Below the pieces are notes generated by a model that was not told the origin of the DNA, searched no databases, and saw nothing but the letters and a program-made list of their open reading frames with translations. Shown here in pieces: positions 12,691-32,894 of a DNA stretch of 64,000 bases. Numbering within the stretch: position 1 is the stretch's first letter; the number at the start of each line of letters is the position of its first letter. The stretch is from positions 7,235,501 through 7,299,500 of the forward strand of contig NZ_CP130630.1 in NCBI RefSeq assembly GCF_030551255.1, written 5' to 3'. Source of the stretch: Streptomyces sp. NL15-2K. Lineage in GTDB: Bacteria > Actinomycetota > Actinomycetes > Streptomycetales > Streptomycetaceae. Position numbers and translations under genes: made by a program.

Positions 12691-12708
12691 TGTTTGCCTG
12701 GTGGCGGG

Positions 12709-13208: not shown

Positions 13209-13232
13209 GCGCACATGGTTGCACATGGTGCA
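13203..13232. promoter_or_regulatory. Probable toxin-antitoxin operator
   Basis: AACCATG...CATGGTT inverted arms around CGCA at the antitoxin start codon, followed by a second GCACATGGTGC copy. Repeated ACATGGT half-sites at a Phd/YefM promoter are expected for antitoxin autoregulation. Confidence 0.55.
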
Positions 13233-13274
13233 TCTTGTGAGCAATCCATAAGTCGAAGTCGGCCTGCAGAACAT

Positions 13275-13296
13275 GTTCCGCGGAAACGGACGGAAC
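13275..13296. promoter_or_regulatory. Palindrome GTTCCG-N10-CGGAAC upstream of the AIPR gene
   Basis: GTTCCG (13275-13280), ten bases, CGGAAC (13291-13296). An identical architecture with the same 10-base spacer lies at 20627-20648, between the XRE regulator and its divergent neighbour. A TAGCCT -10-like hexamer follows at 13315-13320. This is the probable promoter region of the island's first operon. Confidence 0.6.
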
Positions 13297-13374
13297 AGTG
13301 CCGGATCCGCAAGGTAGCCTCGCTCGACATCCGCAAGACCTGCGGTGATCGCCAACGGTGACTGAGGGGGATCC

Positions 13375-15561
13375 GTGCCTTACCCGGTCCAGGCTCGGAG
13401 GCTGGCCATGAAGCTGACCGAACGGTACCGCCCAATGAATATCGCGGAGGATGTGGCGGACCATCCCAACGAGGAACGGATGTTTCTGAGCCGCGCGGTC
13501 GCGGCCCTCTCCTTGCAGTACGAGGCCGGCATGAGCGCCGAGGACGCGGCGCGAGCGATCACCGACGGCAGGGGGGACGAAGGCTTCGACGCTGTCGCCG
13601 TCAGGGGCCGGGAGATCTTCGTCGTTCAGGCGAAATGGAAGGACAACGGGACTGCGGGATTCGGCAACTCCGACGTCGCCGCCGTCGTGGACGGGCTGCG
13701 CTATCTCTTCAACCGCGACTTCGAGCAGTTCGGGCCGAAGATGGCCCCGCATGTCGACGAACTGACCCGCGCTCTGAAAGCGCCACGCCCGCGCGTGACC
13801 CTCGTCCTTGCGCTCGTCAACGGTGAGGTCGGAAAGGAGCTCCACAACGACACCCGGAAGCGGCTGGAGAAACAGATACGGGCCCTGCATCCGCGTGATC
13901 CGAGCCTGGTCGAGGTCAAGATCGTCAACCTCCTCGACATGTACCACTTCGCCCTGGAGAAGACCCAGCGGAAGGTCACCCTGGTCTTCGACCTGGACAG
14001 TCCGGGCAGGCAGACGAAGCCCTTCCACCTCTACTACGGCACCGTCCCCGCCGCGACGGTGGCCGAGTGGTACGCCGGTGACAACGGCGACTTCCTCACC
14101 GACCGCAACGTCCGTGACGCGCTTGAGGACACCGAGGTGAACTCGGGGATTCGCAACACCCTGATCCAGCACCCGGAGCACTTCCTCTATCTGAACGGCG
14201 GCATCACCCTGGTCTGCGACAAGCTCGGCGGCAAAGGGGTGGACCCGCCCGCCAAATGGGCGCCCGTGGGGCTGAGGCTGCAGGGCGCGAGCGTCATCAA
14301 CGGCGCCCAGACCGGGGAGGTGATCCGTGCGGTGGCGGAATCCCATCCCGACGAGGTCGCCCAGGCCCGGGTGCACATCCGGATCATCTCCCTGGAGGAC
14401 TGCCCCGAGGATTTCGGCGATGCGATCACTATCGCGGCCAACACGCAGAATCCGATCGAGGCCCGGGACTTCAGGGCGCTGGAGCAGGAGCAGGTCGACC
14501 TGCAAGAGGACTTCCAGCTGTCGCTCGATCTCACGTACTCCCGCAAGCGGGGCGAGGACGAGCCCAAGCCCGACCGCGGGTGCACGATGGAGGAGGCTGC
14601 GTTCGCCCTCGCTGCCGTACATCCGGACCCGGTCTGCGCGGCAGCGGCCAGACAAGATCCGGCGTGGCTGTGGGAGAAGAAGAACTACCAGGAGATCTTC
14701 GGCCCGCTGCCGACCGCTCACCGCGTGTGGCGCTGCGTCGGCCTGCTCCGCGCGGTGCGTGCCGAGCTGCGGGAGATCGACCCGGACCAGAGAACTCGCT
14801 TGCGGCAGTTGGCCGATTCCTGCGATCTCCTCCTCACCCACGTTCTGTTCCGGGTCTTGGAGACAGGAGATCTCGACGACGAGGACGCCGGGCCGTCGTG
14901 GTGGGAGCGGCTGGCCCAAGTGCCGTCGTGGGTACGGCAGTCGGTGCCGCTCCTGCTCGACGTCATCTACGCCGCGTACGGATCCAGGGCCCATCTCGCC
15001 AAGGCCGTCGCGTCCACGGAGCGGGTGCCGGAGATCGCGGAGAGAATGTATGAGCTCCTGCTGGCAGCGGACTCGCTCGTGGAGGAGATTCCGGCGGAGG
15101 CCGGTGAGCCGGCGGGTGAGTCCGGTCCCGGGTTGGCGAGTCTGGTGACGGCCATGGATCCGAAGCCTCCGGCCGAGGCGGGTGCCCGGGCGCAGTCCGC
15201 CGTCGGCAGCCGTAGCGCCCGTGCTGTCACCGTGATCGTCGAGCTGAGACTCATCGAAGAGGGGACCCGCCTGGAGCTCCGCCCCGACACCGAGGCGGAC
15301 TACAAGAACCTGCCCCGCTGGATCCAGGAGGACCCGCGACGAGGAGTCGCCCATTGGCGGAACAGCAAGAGCGCCCCTCTCGTCTGGGCCGCCGACGGCC
15401 AGGCGTACTCACCTTCCCGGCTCGTCCGCCGCATCCGCCGCGAGGCGATGGGCAACGACCAGCAGGTCCAGGGGACGAAGTACTGGTTCACGCCGGACGG
15501 CCGCCCACTGACCAAGGTCGTGGAGGAAGCGCCCGACGCGGACAGGGACGCCGAAGCCTGA
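13375..15561 (+). CDS. AIPR-family anti-phage protein with predicted PD-(D/E)XK nuclease
   Basis: A 728-aa protein. Residues about 40-200 look like a restriction-endonuclease-fold domain: GRGDEGFDAVAV (Asp72) followed by EIFVVQAKWK (Gln85-x-Lys87), the D...QxK form of the PD-(D/E)XK site. Residues about 220-560 match the AIPR (abortive infection phage resistance) domain: LNGGITLVCD (274 onward) and GASVINGAQTGEV (304 onward). The last 100 residues (PLVWAADGQAYSPSRLVRRI, GTKYWFTPDG) resemble a RAMA-type domain that reads modified DNA; this is tentative. GTG 13375 follows GAGGGGGATCC. It heads the methylase-specificity operon. Likely an effector or restriction component of the system. Confidence 0.82.
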   Translation: MPYPVQARRLAMKLTERYRPMNIAEDVADHPNEERMFLSRAVAALSLQYEAGMSAEDAARAITDGRGDEGFDAVAVRGREIFVVQAKWKDNGTAGFGNSDVAAVVDGLRYLFNRDFEQFGPKMAPHVDELTRALKAPRPRVTLVLALVNGEVGKELHNDTRKRLEKQIRALHPRDPSLVEVKIVNLLDMYHFALEKTQRKVTLVFDLDSPGRQTKPFHLYYGTVPAATVAEWYAGDNGDFLTDRNVRDALEDTEVNSGIRNTLIQHPEHFLYLNGGITLVCDKLGGKGVDPPAKWAPVGLRLQGASVINGAQTGEVIRAVAESHPDEVAQARVHIRIISLEDCPEDFGDAITIAANTQNPIEARDFRALEQEQVDLQEDFQLSLDLTYSRKRGEDEPKPDRGCTMEEAAFALAAVHPDPVCAAAARQDPAWLWEKKNYQEIFGPLPTAHRVWRCVGLLRAVRAELREIDPDQRTRLRQLADSCDLLLTHVLFRVLETGDLDDEDAGPSWWERLAQVPSWVRQSVPLLLDVIYAAYGSRAHLAKAVASTERVPEIAERMYELLLAADSLVEEIPAEAGEPAGESGPGLASLVTAMDPKPPAEAGARAQSAVGSRSARAVTVIVELRLIEEGTRLELRPDTEADYKNLPRWIQEDPRRGVAHWRNSKSAPLVWAADGQAYSPSRLVRRIRREAMGNDQQVQGTKYWFTPDGRPLTKVVEEAPDADRDAEA

Positions 15562-15679
15562 AGGCATGGCGCGGAGCGGTGAGGAACCGGTTCCGCGCTG
15601 GCCTAGTCTTGGGCGGTGCCGCCGGATGACAGCAGGCGGGCGAATTGCGGTAATACGGGACAAGGTGGGCGCAGGCGCG

Positions 15680-17983
15680 ATGGGTGAGGAACAGCTGGGC
15701 TTCGACATTCCCGGGGAGGACGGACGGAGGCCGGCGCAGTCGGCCAAGGCGAGGTCGCAGGCGTCCGGCAGGGGGCGCGCGCAGAAGGCGCAGGAGGAGA
15801 CCTCGGGGCCGCGCAAGCTCCAGGACGACGAGATCTTCGACTACATCTCCGGAGACAAGGTCGTCAAGCACACCCCGATGGAGGAGGTGCGGCAGCGCAT
15901 CGCCCGCGCGCTGGTCCATCAGTACGGCATCGATCCGCGCGACATGAGGGCCGACTTCCCGCTCCAGGTGGAGAACCGCAAGACCGGCCGCAAGTCGCGC
16001 AAGCGGGCGAGCATTGTGATCTTCAAGCACGGCTCGATCGAGCCCGACGCGGAGCCCAGGCCGGAGGACATCCGCCGGATCGTCGTCATCAAGCCGCCCC
16101 GCAACGACAGCCGTACCGTCTCCAAGATCCGTACGTTCGCGCGGGCCAAGGAGCAGGTCGACGAGGTCGCCGACCTGATGCACGCGGCCGGGCCGCAGTG
16201 CGAGTACGGCATGTGGACGGATGACAAGGACCTCTACTTCATCCACCGCAAACGGCACCGCTTCGAGGACGAGTACCTGCCGCTTGCCAACTGGCCGCGC
16301 GGCGACGCCAGCCTCTTCGATCCCAAGGGCAACATCTCCTCGCTCGGCATCATGAAAAGCGCCGACGAGACGATGCTCAAGTTCGCCTTCCGCCGCTGCC
16401 ACGACTTCATCCACGGCAACGAGGGCCTGCCCAAGGACGCCGCGTTCTGGCAGTTCCTCTACGTCCTGTTCGCCAAGCTGCACGACGAGGAACTGGTCCG
16501 GGAGCAGGGCCGTGACCCCCGGTTCTACATCGACCACACGGAACTCGCCGCCCTCGCCGAGAGTGATGAGGGCAGTAAGGCCGTCGCCGACCGGGTACGG
16601 GACCTCTTCAAGGAGGTCAAGGAGGCCCACGCGGACGAGAACCAGTTCACCGAGTACGACCGGCTCACCCTCAACGACGCCGCGCTCACCTTCATCACCG
16701 GTGAACTCTCCACCTACCGCCTGCACGGCACCTCCCTGGACGCTCTCGGCGCCGCCTACCAGGAACTCGTCGGCGAGAACCTGCGCGGCGACCGTGGCCA
16801 GTACTTCACCCCGAACGTCGCAACCCGCTTCATGGTCGAACTGCTCGACCCGCAGCGCGACGAGACCGTCCTCGACCCGTGCTGCGGCACCGGCGGTTTC
16901 CTGCGCGAGACCTTGCTGCATGTGCTTCACCGGGACGGGCTGCCCGACTTCGGGCGGGGCCTGTCCGTGCAGGAGAAGGCCGAGTTGGAGACGGCGTACC
17001 GCCCGAAGCTCGCGAAGTACGCCAGGGAACGGGTCTTCGGCCTCGACTTCGACCCGTTCCTCACCCGCGCCGCCTCCTTCGGCGTGATGATGATGACCAA
17101 GGCCAAGGGCAACACCTTCCAGGTGGACTCGCTCCGGTTCCCCTACGCGGGCACGGACAAGCCTGGATTCGGGCCCGCCAAGGAGCACGAGGACCGCATC
17201 GGTATCGGCAAGGTCCACGTCTTGATCACCAACCCCCCCTTCGGCACCGACATCCCCGTCACCGGGCCGACGCTGGACCTGTTCCGGGTGGACGAGTACA
17301 GCAGGGTGAAGGACGCGAGCATCGCCTACGACTGGAGCAAGGACAAGGAGAAGGGCGACGGCTCGCTCAAGCGTGGCAAGCCCGCCTCCTCCGTCCCACC
17401 CGAGCGGCTGTTCGTCCAGAAGTGCGTGGAGTGGGTCAGGCCCGGCGGACGCATCGGGATCGTGCTGCCCAACGGCATCCTCTCCAACCCGGGCCCCGAC
17501 GACGAGGCGGTACGGCGGTACATCCTCGACGAGTGCTGGGTGATGGCCAGCGTCGAACTCCCCGTGGAACCCTTCGTGTTCGGCGCCGGCGTCAACATCC
17601 TCACCACCATGCTTTTCCTGCGGAAGAAGACCAAGGCGGAGAAGGAAGAGGAGCGGGAGTACGGCCCCACCGACTACCCCGTGTTCATGTCCGTCGTCGA
17701 GAAGGTCGGCCACGACCGGCGTGGCAACCGGCTGTACGTACGTGATGCGCGCGGTGAGTACGAGTGGCGGGAGTACTTGGAGAACGACGACATCTGGGTC
17801 GGGGACGTGGTCGTGCCCCGGAAGATCAAGCGGCGCAAGCGGATCCTGGACAACGACCTGCTCGCTCTGCGGGACCGGCCCGAGAAGGACGTTGAGGTGC
17901 GGGCCAATGTGATCGACGCGTACCACGAGTTCCTGAAGAAGCATGGGCATGAACTTCCCTGGTTGAAGGGGGAGTCGGCGTGA
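15680..17983 (+). CDS. mad2: MADS-type N6-adenine DNA methyltransferase (HsdM-like)
   Basis: A 767-aa methylase. A basic linker is followed (residues about 55-200) by a segment resembling the HsdR N-terminal domain (PMEEVRQRIARALVHQYGID, then RKRASIVIFKHG), with a degenerate nuclease core. The HsdM helical domain (AAYQELVGENL, GQYFTPNVATRFMVELL) precedes the Rossmann fold with motif I DPCCGTGGFL (Asp399) and motif IV NPPFG (Asn518-Pro-Pro-Phe). It transfers methyl from SAM to adenine N6 and needs the S subunit for site choice. The frame opens earlier (15566); ATG 15680 was chosen because AAGGTGG lies upstream. It overlaps the specificity gene by four bases (GTGA). The mad2 label rests on domain content and on the order methylase-S-kinase-mad7-mad8. 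Confidence 0.86.
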   Translation: MGEEQLGFDIPGEDGRRPAQSAKARSQASGRGRAQKAQEETSGPRKLQDDEIFDYISGDKVVKHTPMEEVRQRIARALVHQYGIDPRDMRADFPLQVENRKTGRKSRKRASIVIFKHGSIEPDAEPRPEDIRRIVVIKPPRNDSRTVSKIRTFARAKEQVDEVADLMHAAGPQCEYGMWTDDKDLYFIHRKRHRFEDEYLPLANWPRGDASLFDPKGNISSLGIMKSADETMLKFAFRRCHDFIHGNEGLPKDAAFWQFLYVLFAKLHDEELVREQGRDPRFYIDHTELAALAESDEGSKAVADRVRDLFKEVKEAHADENQFTEYDRLTLNDAALTFITGELSTYRLHGTSLDALGAAYQELVGENLRGDRGQYFTPNVATRFMVELLDPQRDETVLDPCCGTGGFLRETLLHVLHRDGLPDFGRGLSVQEKAELETAYRPKLAKYARERVFGLDFDPFLTRAASFGVMMMTKAKGNTFQVDSLRFPYAGTDKPGFGPAKEHEDRIGIGKVHVLITNPPFGTDIPVTGPTLDLFRVDEYSRVKDASIAYDWSKDKEKGDGSLKRGKPASSVPPERLFVQKCVEWVRPGGRIGIVLPNGILSNPGPDDEAVRRYILDECWVMASVELPVEPFVFGAGVNILTTMLFLRKKTKAEKEEEREYGPTDYPVFMSVVEKVGHDRRGNRLYVRDARGEYEWREYLENDDIWVGDVVVPRKIKRRKRILDNDLLALRDRPEKDVEVRANVIDAYHEFLKKHGHELPWLKGESA

Positions 17984-19395
17984 AGGTCGCGGAGGCGGGG
18001 AATCCGGCGCGGCGGGGGTGGTTCGACAGGCAGGGGCTGCGGCTTGTTGCTAAGCCTTATCTGTCGGGGGCGTTCGCTACGCAGCGGATGTTGGAGCGGC
18101 TGCCCGTGGAGAGCACGGCGCTGAAGGAACTTACGGCGAGGCACGGGGGCATCTTCAGCGGACCGCAGTTCGCACGCGTGTACCTCACCGCGCCCGAGCA
18201 CAGCGTTCCGTTCGTCGGCAGCAAGGACATGCTGGTGGCTGACTTCAGCACGCTGCCCCGGCTGAGGAAGAGCGACGCTGAGTTGCCGGGGATGCGCTAT
18301 CTGAAGCTCCAAGCGGGTACGAGCTTGATCTCGCGTTCCGGGTTCAACGCAGGGCGCCGGTCGTATGTGCGCCCGGACATGGCCGGCTTCTGGTCCTCGG
18401 AAGATGTCATCAAGGTCGTACCTGACGAGGACAAGATCAAGCCGGGTTATCTGTACGCGTTCCTGTCGAGCCGATTCGGCGAGGTGCTGGTCAGGTCCGG
18501 GATCTACGGATCGGCCGTCAAGCACATCGCGCCCAACCATGTCGGTGAGATTCGTGTGCCTCGCTTCGGGGCCGCCGTGGAGAATGAGATCCACGAACTC
18601 GTCCAGGACGCGGCCGAGTTGAGGGCGGAGTTCCAGGCGAGGCTGGAGGCGGCGACCAGAGATCTGTTTTCCACGGCCGAGATCGAGGAGCTTTTGGATC
18701 TGCGGTGGCATGAGCGCGGGCGGGATCTGGGGTTCGCCCCGCGCCGGGTCACAGCGACGAGTTTGCGTGCGCTGAACTTCCAGCCCAGGGCGCAGAGGAT
18801 TCTGGAGCGGTTGGGGGAGCGGGAGTGCGTGACGTTGGGGGAGGTTTGTGAGGGGGGCATGCTCAGAACCGGGAAGCGGTTCAAGCGTGTTGAGGCGGAC
18901 CGGGCCCATGGCGTTCGGCTGGTCGGGCAGCGTCAATCCTTCTGGGTTCGGCCGGAAGGGCGCTGGATCAGCGCAGAACAGGCGCCGGACGACATCCTGC
19001 AACAGGACGAGACTGTCTTGATCGCCGCTCATGGCACGTTGGGCGAGAACGAGGTGTATGGTCGGTCGATCCTGGTCACGGGGTCGTGGCTGGACAACGC
19101 GTTTAGCCAGGACTTCGTGCGGGTCCTCAGTGGGGACGCAAACGTTCCCGGGGCTTACCTGTTCGCGTTCTTCCGCTCGGACGCCGCATTCCGCGTTCTG
19201 CGATCCATGAGCGTCGGGGGGAAGCAGCAGGAGTACCACACCAAGCTGCTCCGCGAACTGCCCATTCCCCTTCTCACCCAGCCTGACCGCGACCGCATCG
19301 CCGCCACCGTCCGCTCCGCCTACAAGAAGCGGGACGAGGCCGACCGTAAGGAGGACCTGGCCCTCGCGAGGCTGGAGGAGGCCGTGACGGGCTGA
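17980..19395 (+). CDS. mad5: Restriction-modification specificity (S) subunit-like protein
   Basis: A 471-aa protein with two target-recognition halves: one with SAVKHIAPNHVGEIRVPRFG, the other with VGGKQQEYHTKLLRELPIPLL. Each is followed by a helical coiled segment (ENEIHELVQDAAELRAEFQARLEAA and RDRIAATVRSAYKKRDEADRK), the classic HsdS arrangement. It should direct the upstream methylase to an asymmetric bipartite site. The GTG start overlaps the mad2 stop. Codon use around 17990-19300 is clearly less biased than in neighbours (many T-ending codons), as expected for fast-evolving, transferred recognition genes. It ends at a hairpin shared with the convergent DUF397 gene. Confidence 0.88.
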   Translation: MKVAEAGNPARRGWFDRQGLRLVAKPYLSGAFATQRMLERLPVESTALKELTARHGGIFSGPQFARVYLTAPEHSVPFVGSKDMLVADFSTLPRLRKSDAELPGMRYLKLQAGTSLISRSGFNAGRRSYVRPDMAGFWSSEDVIKVVPDEDKIKPGYLYAFLSSRFGEVLVRSGIYGSAVKHIAPNHVGEIRVPRFGAAVENEIHELVQDAAELRAEFQARLEAATRDLFSTAEIEELLDLRWHERGRDLGFAPRRVTATSLRALNFQPRAQRILERLGERECVTLGEVCEGGMLRTGKRFKRVEADRAHGVRLVGQRQSFWVRPEGRWISAEQAPDDILQQDETVLIAAHGTLGENEVYGRSILVTGSWLDNAFSQDFVRVLSGDANVPGAYLFAFFRSDAAFRVLRSMSVGGKQQEYHTKLLRELPIPLLTQPDRDRIAATVRSAYKKRDEADRKEDLALARLEEAVTG

Positions 19396-19407
19396 GTCGC
19401 CTGTTTC

Positions 19408-19440
19408 GGAACGGTCATGGAACAACTCCAGGACCGTTCC
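19408..19440. terminator. Hairpin between the S subunit and the DUF397 gene
   Basis: GGAACGGTC (19408-19416) pairs perfectly with GACCGTTCC (19432-19440) across a 15-base loop. It also contains GGAAC half-sites like those of the regulator palindromes. It lies between convergent genes. Confidence 0.7.
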
Positions 19441-19456
19441 CAGTCAGGTAACCGCC

Positions 19457-19666
19457 TTACAGGGAGCTGTCCTTGACGCCGTCGACGAATGGCCGCCAGG
19501 CCGAGCCGTCGAGCATCAGGACGGGGCCGGTGGGGTTCTTGCTGTCTCGGACGGGGACCGTGCCGGGGAAGTCGGCGGAGACCTCGACGCATTCGCCCCC
19601 TTCCTGGCCGTCGCTGTAGGAGGACTTGCGCCAGCGGGCGGTGCTCAGGTCCGGGGTGACTCGCAT
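19457..19666 (-). CDS. DUF397 protein paired with the XRE regulator
   Basis: A 69-aa protein with the family signature WRKSSYSDG, GECVEVS, VPVRDSKNPTGPVL and W-x-PFVDGVK. DUF397 proteins are encoded next to XRE-DUF5753 regulators across Streptomyces (WhiJ/AbaA-like clusters) and are thought to bind and modulate the partner. The start ATG 19666 lies 22 bases inside the end of the regulator gene, so the two are coupled. Confidence 0.92.
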   Translation of the reverse strand: MRVTPDLSTARWRKSSYSDGQEGGECVEVSADFPGTVPVRDSKNPTGPVLMLDGSAWRPFVDGVKDSSL

Positions 19667-20493
19667 GGCTCGTATTTCTCCAACATCGTCTCGATCAGCG
19701 CTGCCGACTCCCGTGGCGAGAGGGCGCAGGCTTTCTTGAGATCGTACTCGCGCACGTGCCGCGTGACGGCTTCCCGGTCGTCGATGATTTCCCCGTACCC
19801 GGCGCCCTCCTGGTACATGGTGGTCGAGTTGTCCGGGAGGGTCAGCAGGATGAGGGTGCCGCTCATCAGAGCGCATGCTTCCGCCGCGAACGGGCTTACT
19901 TGGATGGTCGTATGACGTGTGTTGACCAGTGGCAGCAGCGACGCGAGTTGCCCGCGCATTACTGCGAGGCCGCCGACGAGCTGTCGTAGCGCCGCTTCCC
20001 CGATGATCCACCAGAAGTCCGGCGGGCAGTCCCGTCGCAGGATCTCCTGGCGGCCCAAGCGGTCCGCGACCAGGCTGTCGATCTCCTTGGGGCTCTTCCC
20101 TGGCTCCCCTGCTGAGAACAGCGCACGCATGTACGCCTCCGTCTGTAGCAGCCCAGGGATGATGCTCGCGCCGAAAGCCTGAATCCGTGTCGCCTTGGCC
20201 TCCAACTCCAAACAATGATCGAACCGCCTCGGCGTGTGCTCCCGCTTGACCGCCCCCCACAGCCCCTGGAACAACTCCCCCGTCCCAAAAGCCACATCCA
20301 ACTTCTCCGAGATCGGCGGCAGCGGAAGCCGTTCCCCCGTCTCCACGCCGTACAAGTGCGTCTTGCTGTAGTTGACGATGTCTGACAACCGATCCAACGA
20401 CAGCCCTGCCAGCTGCCGTTGGCGGCGCAGCTCGACCCCGTACAGGTCACGCGCGGAGCTGGCGGGTTCGAGGTCGCGGGCGGGCTGGGTCAT
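19645..20493 (-). CDS. XRE-family regulator with DUF5753 domain
   Basis: A 282-aa regulator. The N-terminal Cro/C1 helix-turn-helix is in ELRRQRQLAGLSLDRLSDIVNYSKTHLYGVETG (about 25-60). The C-terminal DUF5753 domain follows (IPGLLQTEAYMRALF, ADRLGRQEIL, WWIIGEAALRQLVGG, IQVSPFAAEACALMSG). The start is ATG 20493 with GGGAGCACC upstream. With the DUF397 gene and the divergent 92-aa gene it forms the familiar WhiJ-like triad, here embedded inside the defence cluster in the opposite orientation. Candidate operators GTTCCG-N10-CGGAAC lie in its own promoter and upstream of the AIPR gene, so it may repress the island. Confidence 0.92.
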   Translation of the reverse strand: MTQPARDLEPASSARDLYGVELRRQRQLAGLSLDRLSDIVNYSKTHLYGVETGERLPLPPISEKLDVAFGTGELFQGLWGAVKREHTPRRFDHCLELEAKATRIQAFGASIIPGLLQTEAYMRALFSAGEPGKSPKEIDSLVADRLGRQEILRRDCPPDFWWIIGEAALRQLVGGLAVMRGQLASLLPLVNTRHTTIQVSPFAAEACALMSGTLILLTLPDNSTTMYQEGAGYGEIIDDREAVTRHVREYDLKKACALSPRESAALIETMLEKYEPCESPRT

Positions 20494-20531
20494 GGTCGGT
20501 GCTCCCTTGCCGTATGCCGTGTGGGCGTGCC

Positions 20532-20648
20532 GTTCCGTATCTCCGAGGGAACGCGGCACACCATTCAAGGTAATTGCGGTCGGTGACAGTGTGGGCGCGA
20601 ACAGTGAAACAGGGCAGGTGGCGGCCGTTCCGTAACACGCTTCGGAAC
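20532..20648. promoter_or_regulatory. Divergent promoter region with GTTCCG/CGGAAC palindromes
   Basis: A perfect GTTCCG-N10-CGGAAC site at 20627-20648 and an imperfect one (GTTCC-N11-GGAAC) at 20532-20552 lie between the XRE gene and the 92-aa gene. The perfect copy matches the AIPR-upstream site at 13275-13296 in arms and spacer length. Confidence 0.6.
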
Positions 20649-20725
20649 ACCGTCACCCTGGTCGGTCGATGTCACTCGCTGTGACTCTGGCGGTGCGAAC
20701 AGCAAGCGCCACCAGGGAGGCACCC

Positions 20726-21004
20726 GTGACATCCCGACGTACGACAACCCGCCCCGACCGCACCGAACTGGAGAGCACCCGGCTCCCGGTCGGTCAACTC
20801 GCCCACGACACGCGGCTGGAGAGGCGCGGGATCGTCATGGACCACCAGGACGGGCTCGTGTGGCTGCGCCCCGAGGGCGGTGGGATGGAGTGGACGGCGC
20901 AGCCCGGCGACGTAAAGCCGCTGAACTTCCGCGAAGACGCGGAGGCCCTGATGTGGGCGCGGGTGGCCCACGCCAACGCCCGCAGCAGAGGGGAGGTTCT
21001 CTGA
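20726..21004 (+). CDS. Small protein divergent from XRE/DUF397 pair
   Basis: A 92-aa hydrophilic protein starting at GTG 20726 after GGGAGGCACCC. It has an Arg/Thr-rich N-terminus, then RLPVGQLAHDTRLERRGIVMDHQDGLVWLRPEGGGMEWTA, which looks like a small beta-rich fold, and a C-terminal EALMWARVAHANARSRG. Similar short genes accompany XRE-DUF5753/DUF397 pairs in Streptomyces. No function is known. It is 170 bases upstream of the kinase gene and may or may not share its transcript. Confidence 0.75.
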   Translation: MTSRRTTTRPDRTELESTRLPVGQLAHDTRLERRGIVMDHQDGLVWLRPEGGGMEWTAQPGDVKPLNFREDAEALMWARVAHANARSRGEVL

Positions 21005-21174
21005 GCTGTGAGTGGTCGCCGCGTGGACCCTGCGTGACCGGTTCGGGGCGCGTTGTCAGTAGGGCGTCCTAGAGTGTTCCGTGAGTCAGGTGTCGGCGCA
21101 TGTGCCCTGGGGATACCCGGGCGGGTGCGTGCGCCGGGACAAGCACGGCGGGAACGGGGAGCGGGGGCAGGGCG

Positions 21175-24100: not shown

Positions 24101-25503
24101 ACGGCGTCGCCGTGGTCAACCTCAACGCCCGCGACGTTCTCGCCGACCCCGACGGCACCGGATCGATCATGCATCGAATGATTGGCGTGCTCACCGACGA
24201 ACGGCACTGGCAGGCCTGCGGCTCCTGCCCGCTCGCCCCGCGCTGCTACGCCCCGCACAACGCCCGTACCTTCTCCCACCCCACCGCGGGTGCCCAGGTC
24301 ACCGAACGGCTCGCCACCCTGTACCGCATGGCCCACCTGCGCGGACGCCTCCACATCACGCTGCGCGACCTGCGCTCGGCCCTCGCCTACACCCTCACCT
24401 CCGGCCGCGACTGCGCCCAGATCCACGCCCTGTACGCGCGCGAGGAACCCGAGGCGGCCCAGGAGATCCTCGACAGCCTGTACTTCACCAGCTGGACCGG
24501 CATCCACACCGGCGGCCACCCGGACGCGGGCACGGGGGCCGGCTCCGGCGCGTCCGCTTCGGCGGCGCGTACCGGCGCCCGCTCCGGCCGTACACCCGAG
24601 AGCGGCACACCGCGACCGGACGAACGCGACCGTCTTCTCACCCAGTTGCGGGACCTGGACGTCGCCGCCGTCCCCGACCCCCAGCTGGACCGGCGGCTCG
24701 ACTACACCGGCCCGGCCGCCGGACACACCCTCGTCTCCTTCGACCAGCGCGGCGACCTCGACGAGCGCCTCCTCACGGACGCCTTCCACGCCCTGCCCCG
24801 CACCCACCAGGCCGACCGCGCCCAGATCTCCGCGCACAGGGCCTATCTCGCCGCGGCCCGGCGCCGCTTCTACTTCGAAAGCCTCGACGACGCCCGCTGG
24901 CGCACCCTCCTGCCCTACCAAGCGGCCGACCGCTTCCTGAACCTGCTCTCCGGCGGACAGCCCGGCCCCGAGGAGCTGGCCCGTCTCATCGAGGCCGTCA
25001 GCCGTGGCGAGGGCATGCCGCGCGGATTCGGTCAGACCGACGGCCGCGACTTGGCGCTCCAGGTACGGGCCGTCCCCGGCGGGACCGTACGCAGCCACCG
25101 GCTGTTCCCCGCCAAGCACTTCACCATCGGGGTCGACGGCCCGCCCGCCTCCCCTTACGTCGAGACCGGCCCCCGTCAACTCGTCGTACGCCATCACTCC
25201 GAGGACGGCCGCCCGCACCGCGCCCAACTGACAGTCCGCCTCGACCTCTACGAGCTGCTCGACCGGTTGCACCGCGGCCACCAGCCCGGCGTCGAGGACC
25301 GCCAGGGCCAGAACCTCGCCCTTGCCGTCTTCAAGAACGCCCTGACCGCGACCTCCTACCAGGAGGTCCTCCTCAACGCCCCCGGCTCGCCGCCCTACCG
25401 GCTGCGCCGCCTCCCGGACGGCTCGCTGCGCCTAGCACCCGCCGCCCAGTCGGACACCCAGCCCGGCACACCTTCGCATCCGGCCCCGGAAGGAGCACGC
25501 TGA
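21175..25503 (+). CDS. mad6: NERD / double-kinase / P-loop ATPase protein (MAD6, PglW-like)
   Basis: A 1442-aa signalling protein. Residues 1-125: NERD nuclease-like domain (FEVDLAIVAD with Asp50, LADTKG with Asp63 and Lys65). Residues about 190-470: a kinase fold with a degenerate catalytic loop HRYLSPDSVL (Tyr343 in place of Asp) and no DFG, so probably a pseudokinase. Residues about 510-790: a second kinase with GHGQFGVVY, Lys544, HCDIKPSN (Asp638, Lys640, Asn643) and DFN (655-657), so active. Residues about 820 onward: an ATPase with GNAGDGKT (about 857-864) and a CxxC...C cluster (C1015, C1018, C1024). PglW of the Pgl/BREX-2 system also joins NERD and kinase domains. The start ATG 21175 begins at the NERD fold. 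It overlaps the next gene by one base. Confidence 0.86.
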   Translation: MARIIPIGEPANEAERMVLRHLREQAPDDWIVVANFELPYGPGRPMFEVDLAIVADHAVYLADTKGVHGRVQVRGGRWYPQGAPFPSPARKIRNHARVAGDLLARSRAASARLGSVWCEGLVILPYPGATLHDPDGRDEVSTYHLDDLVPFLRRHRPPDHGRRPGGDDISALREDIARVFQAETRQPSGPRRFGHYEVVETLYEASPADLADQDGDPARRVSVYRVRLADQPRSGTRILQAHAVDPLLPEGARSTAYARIGNPVQALSKLPGSPFIVPCETSFPLDEGDGYAVVLKDVLAEALRVRLDARGQATLGADARRRVVDGVLGGLAVAHAHRVVHRYLSPDSVLIGRNGTAMLTGFDYAHPGPPRPRDESRGIEAYAHQSPAYLAPECHERPGVFSPATDLYAAGVLFHELYTGEEPTLGAGATPLDSLDDADRIDPELKAIIRELLTADPTARPPAREAIRRLDSADKGRARAQVRRPGRAESGDSFDWDDPHSYTDLPEGFRLTERFRVRSRLGHGQFGVVYQVYNTLDDTDEVLKIITRDRESVRERLESEYRILRRIAPHPNLVRLIDAEFLPRGEFPYLRMEYAEGQDLKRALDQGRPLGPADVRKLLDDCLAGLAHLHAGGVFHCDIKPSNLLWTADGARILDFNAAVSADSTLTPTLGSPRYLAPEATGLTRPSREELTDLDLFALGISAYEALTGGYPWQGRGTPPRGGQPLDPRRLPGLADLDPGFTSVLLRALAPRRHERYRDADEFRAALAKVREVRLVPPAPEPEETRRPALADGGTAEAGSNPFVSHLQTLYSQSDRTNAGTRGLDPAAYPLYVATALDNQLRPDVLAGLHRLVLITGNAGDGKTAFLQHLADEARRRGARFGEARANGDDFTLDGRSFHTNHDGSQDEGEHDNDTVLDTFLGPYRGATADAWPDDQTRLVAVNEGRLVDFVTRHQERYPLLADTVREGLTTGRTDHGVAVVNLNARDVLADPDGTGSIMHRMIGVLTDERHWQACGSCPLAPRCYAPHNARTFSHPTAGAQVTERLATLYRMAHLRGRLHITLRDLRSALAYTLTSGRDCAQIHALYAREEPEAAQEILDSLYFTSWTGIHTGGHPDAGTGAGSGASASAARTGARSGRTPESGTPRPDERDRLLTQLRDLDVAAVPDPQLDRRLDYTGPAAGHTLVSFDQRGDLDERLLTDAFHALPRTHQADRAQISAHRAYLAAARRRFYFESLDDARWRTLLPYQAADRFLNLLSGGQPGPEELARLIEAVSRGEGMPRGFGQTDGRDLALQVRAVPGGTVRSHRLFPAKHFTIGVDGPPASPYVETGPRQLVVRHHSEDGRPHRAQLTVRLDLYELLDRLHRGHQPGVEDRQGQNLALAVFKNALTATSYQEVLLNAPGSPPYRLRRLPDGSLRLAPAAQSDTQPGTPSHPAPEGAR

Positions 25504-27194
25504 TGGCGCTGCGTCGCCGAGACACCGAACTCAAGCACTTCGGTGTCTCCTACTTGGACTTCAAGCGGGTGCAGATGGACCGGGTCCTCACCGGATTCCT
25601 CATGCGGCTCAACCACAAGGGCCTCGCCAGCCGCCTGGTGCGACGCAACGGCCTGTCCGCCAAGGAGTTCGCGGGAGAGTTCACCGACCCCGCCAACGCG
25701 GACCGCTTCCAGGGCTTCGCGGACCACCCCGACATGGCCCGGCGCTGGGTGGAGACCCAACTGCTGGACATGGTCAACCGCGGCAGACCCACCCAGGCCG
25801 TCGCGGGACTGCGTCCGCTGCACGGACTCACCTACAAGTTCCGCGACACCTACCACTCCCGGGCCTACGGCGCCGACGCCCAGCTGTACGAGATGCTCCG
25901 GCATGCCCGCGGCCCGTACGGCAGACTCGCCCTCGACCAGCTGCGCGAGTTCTTCTTCACCGGGCTTGGTACCGCCGCCGAACCCGACCGGAAGACACCG
26001 GTCGACGTCGAGACTCAGGCCGTTCTGCACCTCAACAGCCAGGTCAGGGGAGACAGCCCGCACCAGGCCAAGGGCTGGTACTCCGCACCTCCGCTGTGCG
26101 TCGGGCAGGCGGATCTCCTGGCCGACGACGTGATCCGGCTGATGTCCCTGAAGGACCTGCTGCCCCGCGTCACCATGGTCGAGTACTTGAAGATCCTCTT
26201 CGCCTTCCACCTGGCCCTCGGCCAGCTCAAGACGATGAAGCTGTTGCCCGTCGCTGCGGCCCGGTCGGCGGCCGATCCCGCCTGTGGTACCGACCGCTGC
26301 CCGGCCGCCGGCGCGGCGCCCGACCCGCTCGCCGGATGCCCCTTCCGCGTCGGGCTGCTCGTCGACGTGGCCGGTGTGCCCGGCACCCCCACCGCAGTAC
26401 TCGCCGAACACAGCGCCGAGTACTGGCTGCGCCGCATCCCGGACTTCCTGCGGGCCGCGTACACCATCCGCAAGCTGGACGACTTCGCCGAGCACCTCGT
26501 CGGCCAGGGAAAGGAGAGCCGCCCGCAGCGAGGCCACTTCACGGTGTCAGAGCTGCTCCGCTTCGGCACGGACGACTACCGCAGACAGCGCGACGAGTTC
26601 TTCGGCGCCCGGCTGACCGCGATCCTCGACGACACGTCGGTCGAGGAACAGCCCGAGGAGGTCAGGCCGCTGCTCGACGAGTCCATGGGACTCGCACCCT
26701 TCGAAAAATACCTCGAACTCCTCATGGCCTACCGGGGCCGTTACCACCACAAGTACGTCGTCGACACCATCGATGCCTTCCTGCTCAAGAACCGCTCCGG
26801 TGCGGCCATAGCGCAGCCCCACGGCGGCCGACGCCGCTTCGTCCTCGACAGCGCGCTGTTGGAGGTGCTGGTCCAGGTGGCGCTGCTGCGCCGAAACTCC
26901 CGCGGCGGCTCCTCCCCGTACACCCACCACACTGTCTCACTCCGGCTCGACGAGTTCCTCGCCCTGCTGCGCGACCGGTACGGGCTGTACGTGGACCGAC
27001 TGCCCATGGCGGACGGATTCGGCCCCGCGGGCCTGGAGGAGGAGGCCGCGCTCAGGGCCAACACCGAGGCGTTCACCACGCGGATGCGGGAGATCGGCTT
27101 CTACGACGACCTCTCCGACGCTTATCTCACCCAGGTGATCACCCCGAGGTTCTCCATCACCGAGGACGGCACGGTGACCACCGGCGGACGGTGA
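25503..27194 (+). CDS. mad7: MAD7-like protein of unknown fold
   Basis: A 563-aa soluble protein. ATG 25503 overlaps the kinase gene stop (TGATG), so the two are translationally coupled. There is no nuclease, helicase or nucleotide-binding motif that I recognise. Visible features are a basic N-terminus (ALRRRDTELKHFGVSYLDFKRVQMDR), many amphipathic helices, a Cys cluster (CGTDRC...GCPF, residues about 261-280) that could bind a metal, and a C-terminal ordered region (SLRLDEFLALLRDRYGLYVDRLP) suggesting a winged-helix-like fold. The name rests on its position between the MAD6-like kinase and the MAD8-like ATPase. A structural or adaptor role in the complex is likely. Confidence 0.7.
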   Translation: MALRRRDTELKHFGVSYLDFKRVQMDRVLTGFLMRLNHKGLASRLVRRNGLSAKEFAGEFTDPANADRFQGFADHPDMARRWVETQLLDMVNRGRPTQAVAGLRPLHGLTYKFRDTYHSRAYGADAQLYEMLRHARGPYGRLALDQLREFFFTGLGTAAEPDRKTPVDVETQAVLHLNSQVRGDSPHQAKGWYSAPPLCVGQADLLADDVIRLMSLKDLLPRVTMVEYLKILFAFHLALGQLKTMKLLPVAAARSAADPACGTDRCPAAGAAPDPLAGCPFRVGLLVDVAGVPGTPTAVLAEHSAEYWLRRIPDFLRAAYTIRKLDDFAEHLVGQGKESRPQRGHFTVSELLRFGTDDYRRQRDEFFGARLTAILDDTSVEEQPEEVRPLLDESMGLAPFEKYLELLMAYRGRYHHKYVVDTIDAFLLKNRSGAAIAQPHGGRRRFVLDSALLEVLVQVALLRRNSRGGSSPYTHHTVSLRLDEFLALLRDRYGLYVDRLPMADGFGPAGLEEEAALRANTEAFTTRMREIGFYDDLSDAYLTQVITPRFSITEDGTVTTGGR

Positions 27195-27252
27195 GAGGGA
27201 CCAGGCGGACGGTGAACAGGACAGGCAAGAGGGAGACGGGGGAGACAGGACC

Positions 27253-30200
27253 ATGACAGGCGGATTGGTGGAGATCACCGAGACCGATTGGCGACGCGCG
27301 CTCGAACACGTCGCGCTGCCGGGCCTCGCCGACCTGCTGCGCACGCGCGAGGCCGGCCACTGCATGCGGGTCGGCGGACTCGACGCCGACCTCGCCGCAC
27401 GCCTGACCGGCGGCCTGCGCCAGGCCGTTCCCGACGCCCAGGTGTACGTCCTCACGGCCGGGCCCGCCGACGCGCGCGGCGACGGCATGTCCGTCAGCAG
27501 CACGAAACTCGTCGAACTGCGCAACCCCGACGAGCAAGGCAACCTCAGGCCTCCGCTGCTGGTGTTCGTACCGCCCGGGACCAAGGCCAGCGCGGAGGAC
27601 TCCTTCTCGGTCGCGACCTTCGAGGAAGTCTCCCTCCGGGAGGTGCACACCCGGCTCCGGCGCAACCTCCTCAAGGACGTGCCCGAACCGCTGCGCGCGA
27701 GCGTCGAGCGGTTGCTCGCCGAGACCTCCGAAGCCTCGGACCGGGATGCGGCCCGATATCTGCTCACCCTGCGGGAGAATCAGCACGACCCGCAGGCCGC
27801 CGGAGCCGCCGTCCATCTGCTCGGCCTCATCCCGGACTTCCAGCTCTTCACCGACCCCTCCCTCCTCGTCACCAAGATCCAGCGCAACCGGCGTACCGTC
27901 GAGCGCCTCACCGACGGCCCCGCCACCGACCGGCAACGCGTCCTCGCCCTCGGCCTGCCCCGCAATTCCGACGAACACCAGCGCTTTCTGCGCCGCCTCG
28001 TCGACTTCGCCGCGGCCACAGGCCTGTCGGACCCCCGGCACTGGTGCCGGGCCATCGCCGTCGACCCGGACAACTGGCCGTTGGCTTTCCACCACTGGCC
28101 GCAGGAGAACGACCCGTCCGACCAGACCGTACGCATCGAGGTCGACGACCTGACCGCACTGCCCAAGGCCGGGGAGAACGCGGAGGACCAGCGCAATCAC
28201 CCCGCCCTTGACCGGCTCTTCGGCCAGCCCTACCTCCTGCCCGGCGGACTTCCCTCCCTCCCGGTCACCTTCTCCGTGGACCGGGACCAGCGGGGCATCA
28301 CCGGCCTGAAACGCTTCAAGGTCGAGATCTGCGCGGAAACCGGCGACGAGCCAGGAGACGCGGACGGCGGAGACGCGGTCGTCCCGCTGACCAGCCCGAC
28401 CGGGCTGACCGTGACCGTCCCGGCCGGCGCACGCATCAAGCCGCAGTACAAGACAAGCATCAAACTCCGCAAGGGGCGCCGTGCGCCGGACTGGGCGGAG
28501 GGCTGGCACTTCGTCCGTGTCACCCCGCTCGACGGGAACGACGACCCCATGCACGTCGCCGGCAGTGAGCAGGCCGTCGGCCGCCGCCCGTACGAGAGCG
28601 ACCGCTTCTACGTCGTCCCCGAGGGCGAGTTCGACGAGCCGCCCACCCCCCGGGGCCACCATGCGCCCGGCCTCGCCCAGGCGATCAACCGGCTGCGCTT
28701 CACTGCGCTCGCCGAAGGCCGCGACCCGGCGCGGGTGCAGTGCCGCGAGACTGGCTGGGGCCCGCGCGGCACCAGTCTGAAGACACGCTCACTGCGCGCA
28801 TCCTTCGGCCCCGCCGGAGTAGTCACCATCGACTTGCCGCGGCTCTTGGCCGAGGCCGAGCAGCACGTCCTGCGGGCCCCGCACATCCTTCACGGACCCC
28901 AAATCGATGTGGACGCGGCCGGAGCCGCCCGGCTCTCCGTAACGGGGGACGGGGGTCCGCAGGCCGAGGGCGACACCGGGTCCACCACCGCCCCCTCGCC
29001 CACCGAACCGTCGTACGACCCCTTGGACGGCTCCACCGAGGGGCCGGGCGAGGGATCGTTCACCGGTTACTTCCGCGCGCGAGCAGAACTCTTCGGACGA
29101 CTCGCCCTGTCACAGGCCACGGACGGCGCGTCGGACGTCCTGGTCGTGGAGGGCGCGGACCCGCGCGTGCTGCGGGCCGACGTCGAGGCATACGCGGAGG
29201 CATACCTCATCGCCGTCTCCGCCTGCCTGCGAGCTTTGGACCGGCCCAACGCCGCGCACGCCGATCAGCGGCGGGCGCGGCTGCACAGCCTGCTGCGCAC
29301 CGACACCGTCACGGTCCGACTGCACGACACGGACGGCAGCCGACGCACCGTCGTCCTGGTCGCCCCCACCCACCCGCTGCGCGTGTTGTGGTGGAGCGGA
29401 CAGGCCGCCCTCGCCGACCAGTGGCTCGAACAGCTCCGCGACGCCCGGGAAGGGGAGGTCAAGGCGCGGCTGGACAGCCTGGAACGGCAGCTGGCCCCCT
29501 TGGGCTACCCCCTCGCCGTACCGCTGGACTCGGGGGAACTCGCCTTCGCCAGCAGCCCGTTGACGGACTACTGGCAGGTCTGTCTGCCCAGTGAGGCCGA
29601 CGACCCCCGAGAGGTCCTGGCCCGGGTCGCGGGCGCGCTCGGCGTCGACGTGGCGGCAGCGGCGGGTGGGGTGACCGGCGCGGAACTCGCCGACCGGGTG
29701 GAGAAGTACATCCGCCTGCACCCCTACGCCGACAGCCTGGTGATCAACACACTCGGCGCCGGCCACGGGGAACTCGTCGCAGACATGCTGGTCGCCCTTC
29801 AGGAGCGCCGACACCTGTCCCACCTGCACTACACGGTGCGGCTGTTCGCCACCGCGCCCGACGACCCGTGGACGGGGTCCGCGCTGACCGACCTGATGGC
29901 TCCGGCGAGCGGCCCGCGTTCCGCCGCTGCGGAGGCCTTCGCCACCCCCGGGGACCCACTGCGGCCCAAACTGTCGGTGGTGGTGCGCGGCGCCACGGAA
30001 CTCCTGACGGCCGCCGACGACTTCCCTGCCCACCTCACCTTCCTGTTCAACCCCTTCGGTGGCGAGAGCCACGACATCGCTCCCGGCCGCGACGGCACCG
30101 GACGGGTCGCCGTGCACGGGCTCGTCCAGGAGATGAGCGGCGACTATCAGGAGGACGACGACAACGTCGAGTGGACCCGCCGTCCCCGGCACGGCGTCAC

Positions 30201-32877
30201 CGCCCCCGTGCCGGGCGCCGAGACGACCGGTGACCTGCTCGCGGCCCTGCCCCGGACGCTGTCCGCCGCCCTGGTCGCGGCCAGTGCGGGCGAGCACCGG
30301 CCCGGCATGCTGCCGCAGATAACGGTCCGGCTCGACCCGGACGACCGGGCCCTCCTGCACGACGTGCACCGGATCAGCGACTGGGTCGTGACCGTGGACC
30401 GCACCCTCGGCGCGGAGTACTTCGACCACGGTCGGCGCGGGCGCACTGAGTACGTCATCGACCACACCACAACGTCACACAGCGGGCTCGGCCACCAGAT
30501 CGTCGTCTCCTCCCGGTCGCTGGACGAGATGCGCGCCCTGCTCGGCCCGGTGCTGGCCGACAGGTCGCTCGACATCCCCGAACGGCACATCCGTACCTTC
30601 TTCGACCAGCTGCGGGAGCTGTCCGGCAGCCTTGTGTTCAAGCTCGCCGCGCTCGGTGAGAACCAGCGCACCGAGGTCCTCGGCCTGGCCCTCGCACGCC
30701 GGTACCTCGGTGCGCGGGACGCGCTGCGCGATCAGATCCTCGTCCCCCTCGACGCCCACCCCGAGCTCTACGAGGAGGAACGCGGCCGGGCGGCGGCCGG
30801 GGACACAGACGTACGGCTCCAGCGCACCGACCTCGCCTTGTTCGACCTCGACGCCGAGCGACGCACCATCGTGTGTCGTCTCCTGGAGGTCAAGTGCCAT
30901 ACTGGCGGTGGTCTCGGCGCCTACCAGGGCAAGCGCCAGCACATCATCCGCCAGACCGAGAACACCGAGCGGATCATCGCCGAACGGTTCGATCCGGTGC
31001 GAGGACGCACCGACCGCCCGCTGCAGAACGTGGCGCTGCGCACGCTGCTGGAGAAGTACCTCTCTCGCGCGGGCCGTTACGGTCTCTTCGGCGAGCGTGC
31101 GATGGCCGAGGCACGGTGGCTGCTGGACCGCCTCGATCACGGCTACCGCCTCAAATTCACGCGTACCGGCCTCGTGTTCGACCTCTCCAAGGACGGCTTC
31201 GACACCGATCACGACGAAGGGGTGTCGTTCCACCGGATCGGCCGCGACCACGCCGTGCGGCTGCTCGACGACATCGAGACGGAATACCGATCGACCCCGG
31301 AAAACTCCGAACAGGACTCCGCGGCGCACGAGCCGGTCCTGCCGGGCTTGGAGGACCTCAGCGCACAGGACGGGGATGCTGTCCCAGTCACGGCCACTGT
31401 TCAGCTACGCCCGCGTGCACGTACTCGGGAGATCCCCGAGGAACCCGCCCCCTTGCCCGACGATCCCGACGATGCCGCGTCGGAGTTCCGGGAGGCCGTC
31501 GGCGCTTCGGGAGCCGATGCCCTGGCAGCGACAGAGGGCACCGAGGCCGTACCAGGGAACACTGAGGTTGAGCCGGAGGAAACCCCGGATGCCCCGGGGG
31601 CCGTCGCCGGAGAACCGGGCCAGGGCGGTGGGGCGCCCGATGGCTCATCGGCTGATGCATCCGATGCCTCGGAGACCAAGGGCCCGGACATTGTCCTCGG
31701 CGTCTCGCGGCCGTCCCCGCAATTCGGTCTCCTCGGCATGAGCGCGGGCCGCACCGTTGGTCTGGATCTCAACGAGACCCATGCGATCAGCCTGTTCGGT
31801 GTGCAGGGCGGCGGCAAGAGCTACACCTTGGGCTCGGTTCTGGAAATGGCGAGCCTGCCGGTGTCAGGGGTCAACCGTCTGGCGAGCCCCCTGGCCAGCG
31901 TCGTCTTCCACTACAGCGAGACCTCGGAGTACGAGCCTGAATTCCTGAGCATGATTCACGCCAACGACGATGAGGGGCAGCGGGAGGCTTTGCACCGCCG
32001 GTACGGTGCGCGGCCTGCAGCTCTCTCCGACGTCGTATTGCTGGTTCCCGAGGAGTATGTGGAGGAGCGCCAGGCCCGCTACCCGGGTGTCCTCGTGCGC
32101 CCCCTGGCCTTCGCCGCCGCCGAACTGAAGATCGCCCATTGGAAGTTCCTCATGGGAGCCGTCGGCAACCAGTCCGGCTACATCCGGCAGATTGGCCGGA
32201 TCATCAAGGCGAACAGGGCCGACCTGACCCTCGAGGCGGTCCGTCGCGGGGTTGATGAGTCGACACTTGACGATCACCTGAAGAGAAAGGCCAGGGAACG
32301 GCTCGACCTGGCAGGTGACTTCATCGACGACTCGGCGCGCATCAAGGACCTTGTGCGGCCGGGCCGTCTGATCGTCGTGGACCTGCGCTCCGACGACATC
32401 GAGAAGACCGACGCCCTCAGTCTCTTCGTCGTTCTGATGCACCTGTTCTCGGAGGTGACCGATGACGGCCGCCCCTTCAACAAGCTGGTCGTCTTCGACG
32501 AGGCGCACAAGTATGCGGACAGTGGCGACTTGGTGACAGGACTCGTGTCCAGCGTGCGTGAGATGCGGCACAAGGGCATGTCGGTGCTTGTGGCCAGTCA
32601 GGATCCACCGTCGGTGCCGTCTGAGCTCATCGAGCTCTGCACCCACATGGTGCTGCACAGGTTTACGTCACCGGCGTGGCTGAAGCACTTGCAGAAGGTC
32701 AATGCAGCACTGTCCGGGCTCAATCCCGAGAAGCTGGCGGCCCTCAGACCGGGTGAGGCGTATGTGTGGTCAGGGAAGGCGACGGATGAGGCATTCGTCA
32801 GGGGGACGGTAAAGGTCGACTGCCGACCGCGAGTGACACGGCACGGAGGTGCGACGCGGACTGCGGTGGGCCGGTGA
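27253..32877 (+). CDS. mad8: HerA-like ATPase with embedded PD-(D/E)XK motif (MAD8, DptH-like)
   Basis: An 1874-aa protein starting at ATG 27253 after GGAGACAGGACC. Residues 1-1150 have no motif I recognise. Near 1198-1214 the sequence LFDLD...LLEVKCH gives Asp1198, Glu1212 and Lys1214, the spacing of a PD-(D/E)XK nuclease. An acidic, Pro-rich linker (about 1370-1490) leads to a HerA/FtsK-type ATPase: GVQGGGKSYTLG (Lys1522), Walker B VVFDEAHKYAD (Asp1749, Glu1750), sensor region VLVASQDPPSVP, and C-terminal RPGEAYVWSG. This is the layout of DptH and related defence translocases. Codon bias weakens from about 31300 on, which suggests the ATPase module has a different history. Confidence 0.84.
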   Translation: MTGGLVEITETDWRRALEHVALPGLADLLRTREAGHCMRVGGLDADLAARLTGGLRQAVPDAQVYVLTAGPADARGDGMSVSSTKLVELRNPDEQGNLRPPLLVFVPPGTKASAEDSFSVATFEEVSLREVHTRLRRNLLKDVPEPLRASVERLLAETSEASDRDAARYLLTLRENQHDPQAAGAAVHLLGLIPDFQLFTDPSLLVTKIQRNRRTVERLTDGPATDRQRVLALGLPRNSDEHQRFLRRLVDFAAATGLSDPRHWCRAIAVDPDNWPLAFHHWPQENDPSDQTVRIEVDDLTALPKAGENAEDQRNHPALDRLFGQPYLLPGGLPSLPVTFSVDRDQRGITGLKRFKVEICAETGDEPGDADGGDAVVPLTSPTGLTVTVPAGARIKPQYKTSIKLRKGRRAPDWAEGWHFVRVTPLDGNDDPMHVAGSEQAVGRRPYESDRFYVVPEGEFDEPPTPRGHHAPGLAQAINRLRFTALAEGRDPARVQCRETGWGPRGTSLKTRSLRASFGPAGVVTIDLPRLLAEAEQHVLRAPHILHGPQIDVDAAGAARLSVTGDGGPQAEGDTGSTTAPSPTEPSYDPLDGSTEGPGEGSFTGYFRARAELFGRLALSQATDGASDVLVVEGADPRVLRADVEAYAEAYLIAVSACLRALDRPNAAHADQRRARLHSLLRTDTVTVRLHDTDGSRRTVVLVAPTHPLRVLWWSGQAALADQWLEQLRDAREGEVKARLDSLERQLAPLGYPLAVPLDSGELAFASSPLTDYWQVCLPSEADDPREVLARVAGALGVDVAAAAGGVTGAELADRVEKYIRLHPYADSLVINTLGAGHGELVADMLVALQERRHLSHLHYTVRLFATAPDDPWTGSALTDLMAPASGPRSAAAEAFATPGDPLRPKLSVVVRGATELLTAADDFPAHLTFLFNPFGGESHDIAPGRDGTGRVAVHGLVQEMSGDYQEDDDNVEWTRRPRHGVTAPVPGAETTGDLLAALPRTLSAALVAASAGEHRPGMLPQITVRLDPDDRALLHDVHRISDWVVTVDRTLGAEYFDHGRRGRTEYVIDHTTTSHSGLGHQIVVSSRSLDEMRALLGPVLADRSLDIPERHIRTFFDQLRELSGSLVFKLAALGENQRTEVLGLALARRYLGARDALRDQILVPLDAHPELYEEERGRAAAGDTDVRLQRTDLALFDLDAERRTIVCRLLEVKCHTGGGLGAYQGKRQHIIRQTENTERIIAERFDPVRGRTDRPLQNVALRTLLEKYLSRAGRYGLFGERAMAEARWLLDRLDHGYRLKFTRTGLVFDLSKDGFDTDHDEGVSFHRIGRDHAVRLLDDIETEYRSTPENSEQDSAAHEPVLPGLEDLSAQDGDAVPVTATVQLRPRARTREIPEEPAPLPDDPDDAASEFREAVGASGADALAATEGTEAVPGNTEVEPEETPDAPGAVAGEPGQGGGAPDGSSADASDASETKGPDIVLGVSRPSPQFGLLGMSAGRTVGLDLNETHAISLFGVQGGGKSYTLGSVLEMASLPVSGVNRLASPLASVVFHYSETSEYEPEFLSMIHANDDEGQREALHRRYGARPAALSDVVLLVPEEYVEERQARYPGVLVRPLAFAAAELKIAHWKFLMGAVGNQSGYIRQIGRIIKANRADLTLEAVRRGVDESTLDDHLKRKARERLDLAGDFIDDSARIKDLVRPGRLIVVDLRSDDIEKTDALSLFVVLMHLFSEVTDDGRPFNKLVVFDEAHKYADSGDLVTGLVSSVREMRHKGMSVLVASQDPPSVPSELIELCTHMVLHRFTSPAWLKHLQKVNAALSGLNPEKLAALRPGEAYVWSGKATDEAFVRGTVKVDCRPRVTRHGGATRTAVGR

Positions 32878-32894
32878 GGTGGATGACGGAGCAA

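Follow-up and report, generated by a model that had tools for sequence, protein, structure and literature searches.

Does the AIPR-family gene at the head of a predicted anti-phage cluster in Streptomyces sp. NL15-2K belong to the methylation-associated defence system (MADS) encoded immediately downstream of it, and what would such a protein do there? MADS itself is already known, reportedly as a set of genes mad1 to mad8 described by Maestri and co-workers in 2024; the variant that we describe here, from a 64,000-nucleotide stretch of the NL15-2K genome (the window), is new. Judged from sequence comparison, the locus is a widespread actinobacterial MADS variant, common among the sampled Streptomyces MADS loci, with a dedicated predicted RAMA nuclease. 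We assign a probability of roughly 60% to the reading in which this second, RAMA-guided AIPR nuclease serves as a backup or abortive effector.

An earlier note, made from the letters of the window, had proposed five MADS genes in the order mad2-mad5-mad6-mad7-mad8, and the open reading frames (ORFs) that it described are present with the expected sizes. All five, which span 15566-32877, exceed the curated NCBIfam cut-offs (bits/cut-off: MAD2 821.9/720, MAD5 567.1/400, MAD6 648.3/460, MAD7 584.6/410, MAD8 219.7/175), so that this identification stands; alignment of N-termini indicates that mad2 most likely starts at 15680 and not where its ORF opens at 15566. The same note was right to place an AIPR gene (PF10592) before mad2 and an inverted XRE/DUF397 pair, matched by Pfam on the minus strand, between mad5 and mad6, and to miss the AAA ATPase gene mad3 and mad4: custom mad3 and mad4 profiles have no match among all window ORFs, and PADLOC mad4 has none in the whole 12.4 Mb genome (E 0.001), while PADLOC mad3, with more than 100 matches per genome in 21 genomes, is uninformative genome-wide. 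The locus thus shares five genes and their order with MADS, and differs from it in the lack of a detectable mad3 or mad4, in the leading AIPR gene and in the XRE/DUF397 insertion. The XRE protein has no PADLOC match at E 0.01, and we encountered no MAD1-named model among the profiles used.

Other known systems fit less well, as the note had also argued. No PglZ, Dnd protein or complete HsdR is found among the listed matches of the island proteins, which for mad2, mad5 and mad6 comprise the first 25 in PADLOC; the only HsdR-related sequence among them is an HSDR_N_2 stretch inside mad2. On these listed matches we reject BREX/Pgl, for which mad6 reaches 137 bits against PglW, far under the NCBIfam cut-off of 990, and plain type I restriction-modification (RM).

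Sampling of 392 genomes of the genus gives 19 with MAD2 over the cut-off; mad2, mad5, mad6, mad7 and mad8 occur in all 19, AIPR in 17, and AIPR directly before mad2 in 14. The AIPR position, which the earlier note called unusual, is thus the commonest arrangement in this sample, and the absence of AIPR from all homologous loci, which that note would have taken, along with separate transcription, as refutation, is not what we find. Five genomes (arrangement A) have mad2-mad3-mad4-mad5 followed by mad6-7-8, with AIPR elsewhere on the minus strand in three and no AIPR in two; four, the window included, read AIPR-mad2-mad5-[XRE/DUF397]-mad6-7-8 (arrangement B), and ten read AIPR-mad2-mad5-mad6-7-8 (arrangement C). 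PADLOC detects mad4 at 5/5 arrangement A loci and at 0/14 of the others, and at one of the former (L046, S. resistomycificus) MAD3 and MAD4 score 538.9/420 and 226/160 bits.

For a second sample we took 80 named mad2 loci, those ranking highest among 273; they share about a dozen contigs with the genus sample and are biased to actinobacteria because the query is Streptomyces-based. Where upstream sequence is available, AIPR is present at 29 or more of 41 actinobacterial loci, compared with none of 32 loci from other phyla; the actinobacterial count is a lower bound, since only about 10 kb past mad2 are covered and the AIPR of L047 (the G280 locus) lies beyond that. AIPR-bearing MADS also extends past Streptomyces to Actinomadura, Nocardia and Actinacidiphila, and on these profile matches AIPR is a recurrent, clade-specific predicted partner of MADS in actinobacteria. 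Among the actinobacterial loci, AIPR lies within 300 bp before mad2 at 20 of 26 where neither mad3 nor mad4 was found and at none of 15 that have them (p 1e-6; loci not independent), an exclusion from the head position that hints at a related role. Plain replacement of mad3-mad4 by AIPR is disfavoured because nine of these 15 loci carry both, eight with AIPR inverted downstream and one (L066) with AIPR 2.4 kb upstream. By the same profiles, the mad3/mad4 slot of the 80 loci holds mad3 and/or mad4 in 35, a second mad2-like gene in eight and neither in 37, so that mad3/mad4 are not universal in MADS; two of these 37, L100 and L111, have about 2 kb in the slot, L111 with a 41-bit mad3 match. The eight loci with a second mad2-like gene are all non-actinobacterial (L096, L101, L104, L106, L108, L115, L116, L120). 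At an Arthrobacter MADS locus (L072:6564-9716), a methyl-directed restriction enzyme of type IV (1129 bits in PADLOC) sits just 5' of mad2, often the place of AIPR in Streptomyces.

AIPR proteins are generally frequent near RM systems (PMC3506569) and the position of this one differs among MADS loci, as would be expected if it were a separate gene for abortive infection that happens to lie in one defence island with MADS. Its phylogeny argues against this. In a maximum-likelihood tree of 17 MADS-linked and 40 other AIPRs, all 17 fall on one side of a single branch (100/99; midpoint root) despite occupying three gene positions. AIPR distances correlate with those of mad2, mad6 and mad8 (r.79-.88) and of mad7 (r.83-.85), and for mad2, mad6 and mad8 the correlation is.78-.87 with rpoB partialled out, a value equalled by 0 or 1 of 2000 permutations. 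With rpoB itself, AIPR correlates at -0.18 across 17 loci and at 0.22 across the ten of arrangement C, and mad2 at -0.23 and 0.32. Because AIPR distances track those of the core genes rather than those of rpoB, the MADS unit appears to move horizontally with AIPR; these distances, the single tree group and the co-occurrence at 17/19 loci already disfavour a separate gene, which we consider very improbable, and membership of AIPR in MADS is well supported. The exception to this cohesion is mad5, which at the ten arrangement C loci correlates with the rest at only r.11-.33 (the highest value, with mad7, is equalled by 47/2000 permutations), while over all 17-19 loci the correlation persists (r.75-.88). 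Such near-decoupling in arrangement C is expected if recognition specificity is swapped, pointing to exchanges of the predicted recognition domains.

What kind of protein is inherited with the core? Comparison shows a predicted layout of a PD-(D/E)XK nuclease-like domain (residues ~18-195), a ParB-like domain (~213-366), a helical middle and a C-terminal RAMA domain (~611-723). The N-terminus is predicted to have the PD-(D/E)XK core fold with a D...(D/E/Q)xK motif, here D72...Q85-x-K87, although at sequence level the nuclease assignment is weakly supported (Mrr_cat in 6/50 members, best E 0.0021); the C-terminus agrees with RAMA in both fold and profile, with no match to the Pfam RAMA model itself. 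The protein shares the AIPR core domain with AIPR/AbiU and MzaE, and differs from them in lying far under the MzaE cut-off (36.1/1050 bits), on which MZA is rejected as the system, in its RAMA domain and in its place inside MADS. One relative (P0037, 47% identity) is labelled Mycobacterium tuberculosis and is perhaps a mislabelled or contaminant record. A ParB-like centre and a RAMA domain might suit a DndB-like regulator, which would use them to contact DNA and to modulate transcription or Mad2/Mad5 without being an effector; D72, Q85 and K87 are all invariant in 50/50 aligned AIPRs, however, a conservation not required of a pure regulator, and we regard this role as unlikely.

The downstream genes appear to resemble the restriction modules of phosphorothioate systems. 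In an alignment of 19 sequences, Mad6 keeps a NERD-type motif, a P-loop and two kinases, of which the first is degenerate (HRY, TGF) and the second has HCD...DF, and Mad8 keeps D...E-V-K (residues ~1193-1214) and the HerA Walker motifs. PADLOC, which lacks curated cut-offs, matches the C-terminal part of mad6 to SspF (95.8 bits, 6e-28), mad7 weakly to SspG (24.2 bits, 3.8e-6) and mad8 to SspH (31.6 bits, 7.5e-9) and HerA (25.4 bits, 1.2e-6); no Dnd models are listed among its matches for mad7 and mad8. Passages of Rakesh et al. (2024, PMC10853773) describe DndF variants with NERD and with inactive and active kinases, and a HerA/FtsK motor in DndH, and our motifs and SspF/SspG/SspH matches agree with these variants; the word MADS is absent from the main text of that paper. 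The module here differs from SspFGH/DndFGH in being tied to a base methylase, the DndFGH link running through SspFGH and those passages. Both this likeness and the RAMA and nuclease domains of AIPR go beyond the earlier note.

We then considered AIPRs outside MADS, examining the surroundings of 40 among 52 such places against 20 displaced control stretches, with neighbours called by custom mad2/mad6 profiles. An N6-methylase is present in the stretch at 17/40 AIPR loci and 0/20 controls, and a Ser/Thr kinase at 21/40 and 3/20, the kinase lying within 200 bp of AIPR in 19 cases. These 19 loci (L126, L127, L130, L132-L137, L139, L143, L150, L153-L157, L159, L161) may hold an AIPR-kinase defence pair. 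Eight neighbour proteins identified by Pfam, most also by PADLOC, comprise three N6-methylases (one with HsdM_N), an HsdS, an HsdR-like protein, two PD-T4-6-type kinases and a UvrD-like helicase. MADS has both kinds of partner, in the methylase Mad2 and the kinase Mad6. RAMA is found in 38/40 non-MADS AIPRs, and for this reason is by itself no marker of methylase neighbours. The absence of a methylase from the examined stretch at 23/40 of these loci would suit a type IV (modification-dependent) restriction enzyme, in which RAMA, with no need of Mad2/Mad5, steers the nuclease to foreign DNA that carries adenine methylation; fusions of RAMA, Mrr-like PD-QXK and NTPase domains are put forward as candidate enzymes of this kind, dependent on N6-methyladenine, in a one-sentence description (PMC11037411). 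By that description alone, the domain kinds are similar, and our AIPR differs in its order of nuclease, ParB-like, helical and RAMA parts. Yet host DNA would itself carry the Mad2/Mad5 mark, so that cutting would have to be context-restricted, and AIPR is inherited along with the methylase; we judge such an enzyme improbable, somewhat more so than the regulator.

Our favoured reading, an AIPR nuclease that backs up MADS or kills the host, would work as follows. By homology, Mad2 would act with Mad5, its S subunit, to place N6-methyladenine on host DNA in a sequence set by Mad5, and Mad6-7-8, as predicted relatives of SspFGH/DndFGH with nuclease, kinase and HerA motor, would attack DNA without the mark. 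AIPR, whose place at the operon head goes with an absence of mad3-mad4, would be a second nuclease, brought to DNA by its RAMA domain and sensitive to the adenine-methylation state there; we infer this sensing, and with it a backup or suicide role, exerted when host methylation is blocked or the primary restriction does not succeed. Between AIPR and mad2, a scan that does not cover Streptomyces promoters detects neither a promoter of the sigma-70 type nor a terminator-like site. More tentatively, RAMA-bearing AIPRs might be a portable guard nuclease of adenine-methylation immunity, with one group serving MADS and others type I-like RM systems and Ser/Thr kinases; the MADS member could monitor the Mad2/Mad5 mark and fire, possibly under control of the Mad6 kinase, when a phage blocks methylation or restriction.

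The cluster lies in an inserted island, as had been suspected. Flank pieces 8020-10230 and 34000-36200 match 199/199 and 198/199 genomes of the genus, and in five empty-site relatives (L209-L213), picked because their two flank matches sat few kb apart, the flanks adjoin: the left block stops at window ~12240-12690, the right block starts at ~32890-32950, and the gap is -43 to +215 bp. Among the 18 other genus MADS loci, G192, G242 and G261 have both flanks and the other 15 resemble the window only within the island, so that MADS occupies several sites. Similar terminator-like hairpins stand at both island ends (window 12645-12688 and ~32893-32935), and 2/3 empty sites inspected show such a hairpin.

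Table 1. Features of the island, in window coordinates.
Feature	Coordinates	Strand	Evidence
Inserted island, ~20 kb, ends approximate	12690..32893		Flank comparison with empty relatives
RelE-like ORF	12709-12960	-	RelE_StbE 18.6 bits, under cut-off 27.9
Phd/YefM-like antitoxin	12957-13355	-	Phd_YefM 33.6/29.8 bits
AIPR protein, 728 aa	13375..15561	+	PF10592 116.3/25 bits; PADLOC AbiU 98.1 bits
mad2, N6-adenine methyltransferase	15680..17983	+	MAD2 match; DPCCGTGGF and NPPF conserved
mad5, specificity (S) subunit	17980..19395	+	NCBIfam MAD5
DUF397 gene	19457..19666	-	DUF397 79.7/24 bits
XRE-family regulator	19645..20493	-	HTH_31 35.4/27 bits; DUF5753 169.6/23.4 bits
111-aa ORF, no family	20669..21004	+	No Pfam, PADLOC or NCBIfam match
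mad6	21100..25503	+	NERD domain, two kinases, SspF-like P-loop part
mad7	25503..27194	+	NCBIfam MAD7; weak SspG similarity
mad8	27253..32877	+	SspH-like middle; C-terminal HerA-type motor with Walker A and B

The Phd/YefM-like and weak RelE-like genes (12709-13355) lie at the left edge of the island, as neighbours and at most candidate members of MADS. XRE and DUF397 are two genes with a 22-bp overlap, so that the 267-aa ORF at 19457-20260 is not one gene; XRE relatives occur at 15/80 named MADS loci, in 11 of those 15 inverted between mad5 and mad6. Relatives of the 111-aa ORF occur at further MADS loci, next to the XRE/DUF397 pair; loci with the XRE gene that have one include G192, G242, G261, G048 and G104.

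The mechanism of phage restriction by MADS is listed as unknown in a passage of a 2026 review (PMC12904381). Our literature search, which did not cover the MADS primary paper, a source that may say more, returned no paper with both 'RAMA domain' and 'AIPR', and for 'AIPR' and 'MADS' as whole words one paper, on building automation by its title. Actinobacterial MADS here gains an extra predicted nuclease, which tree grouping and co-transfer tie to the core and which has an adenine-methylation-linked domain; this offers residues for mutation and a candidate reader domain. AIPR, so far named only as an abortive-infection protein, receives a domain plan, and with it comes a testable idea of how MADS-type systems may destroy viral DNA.
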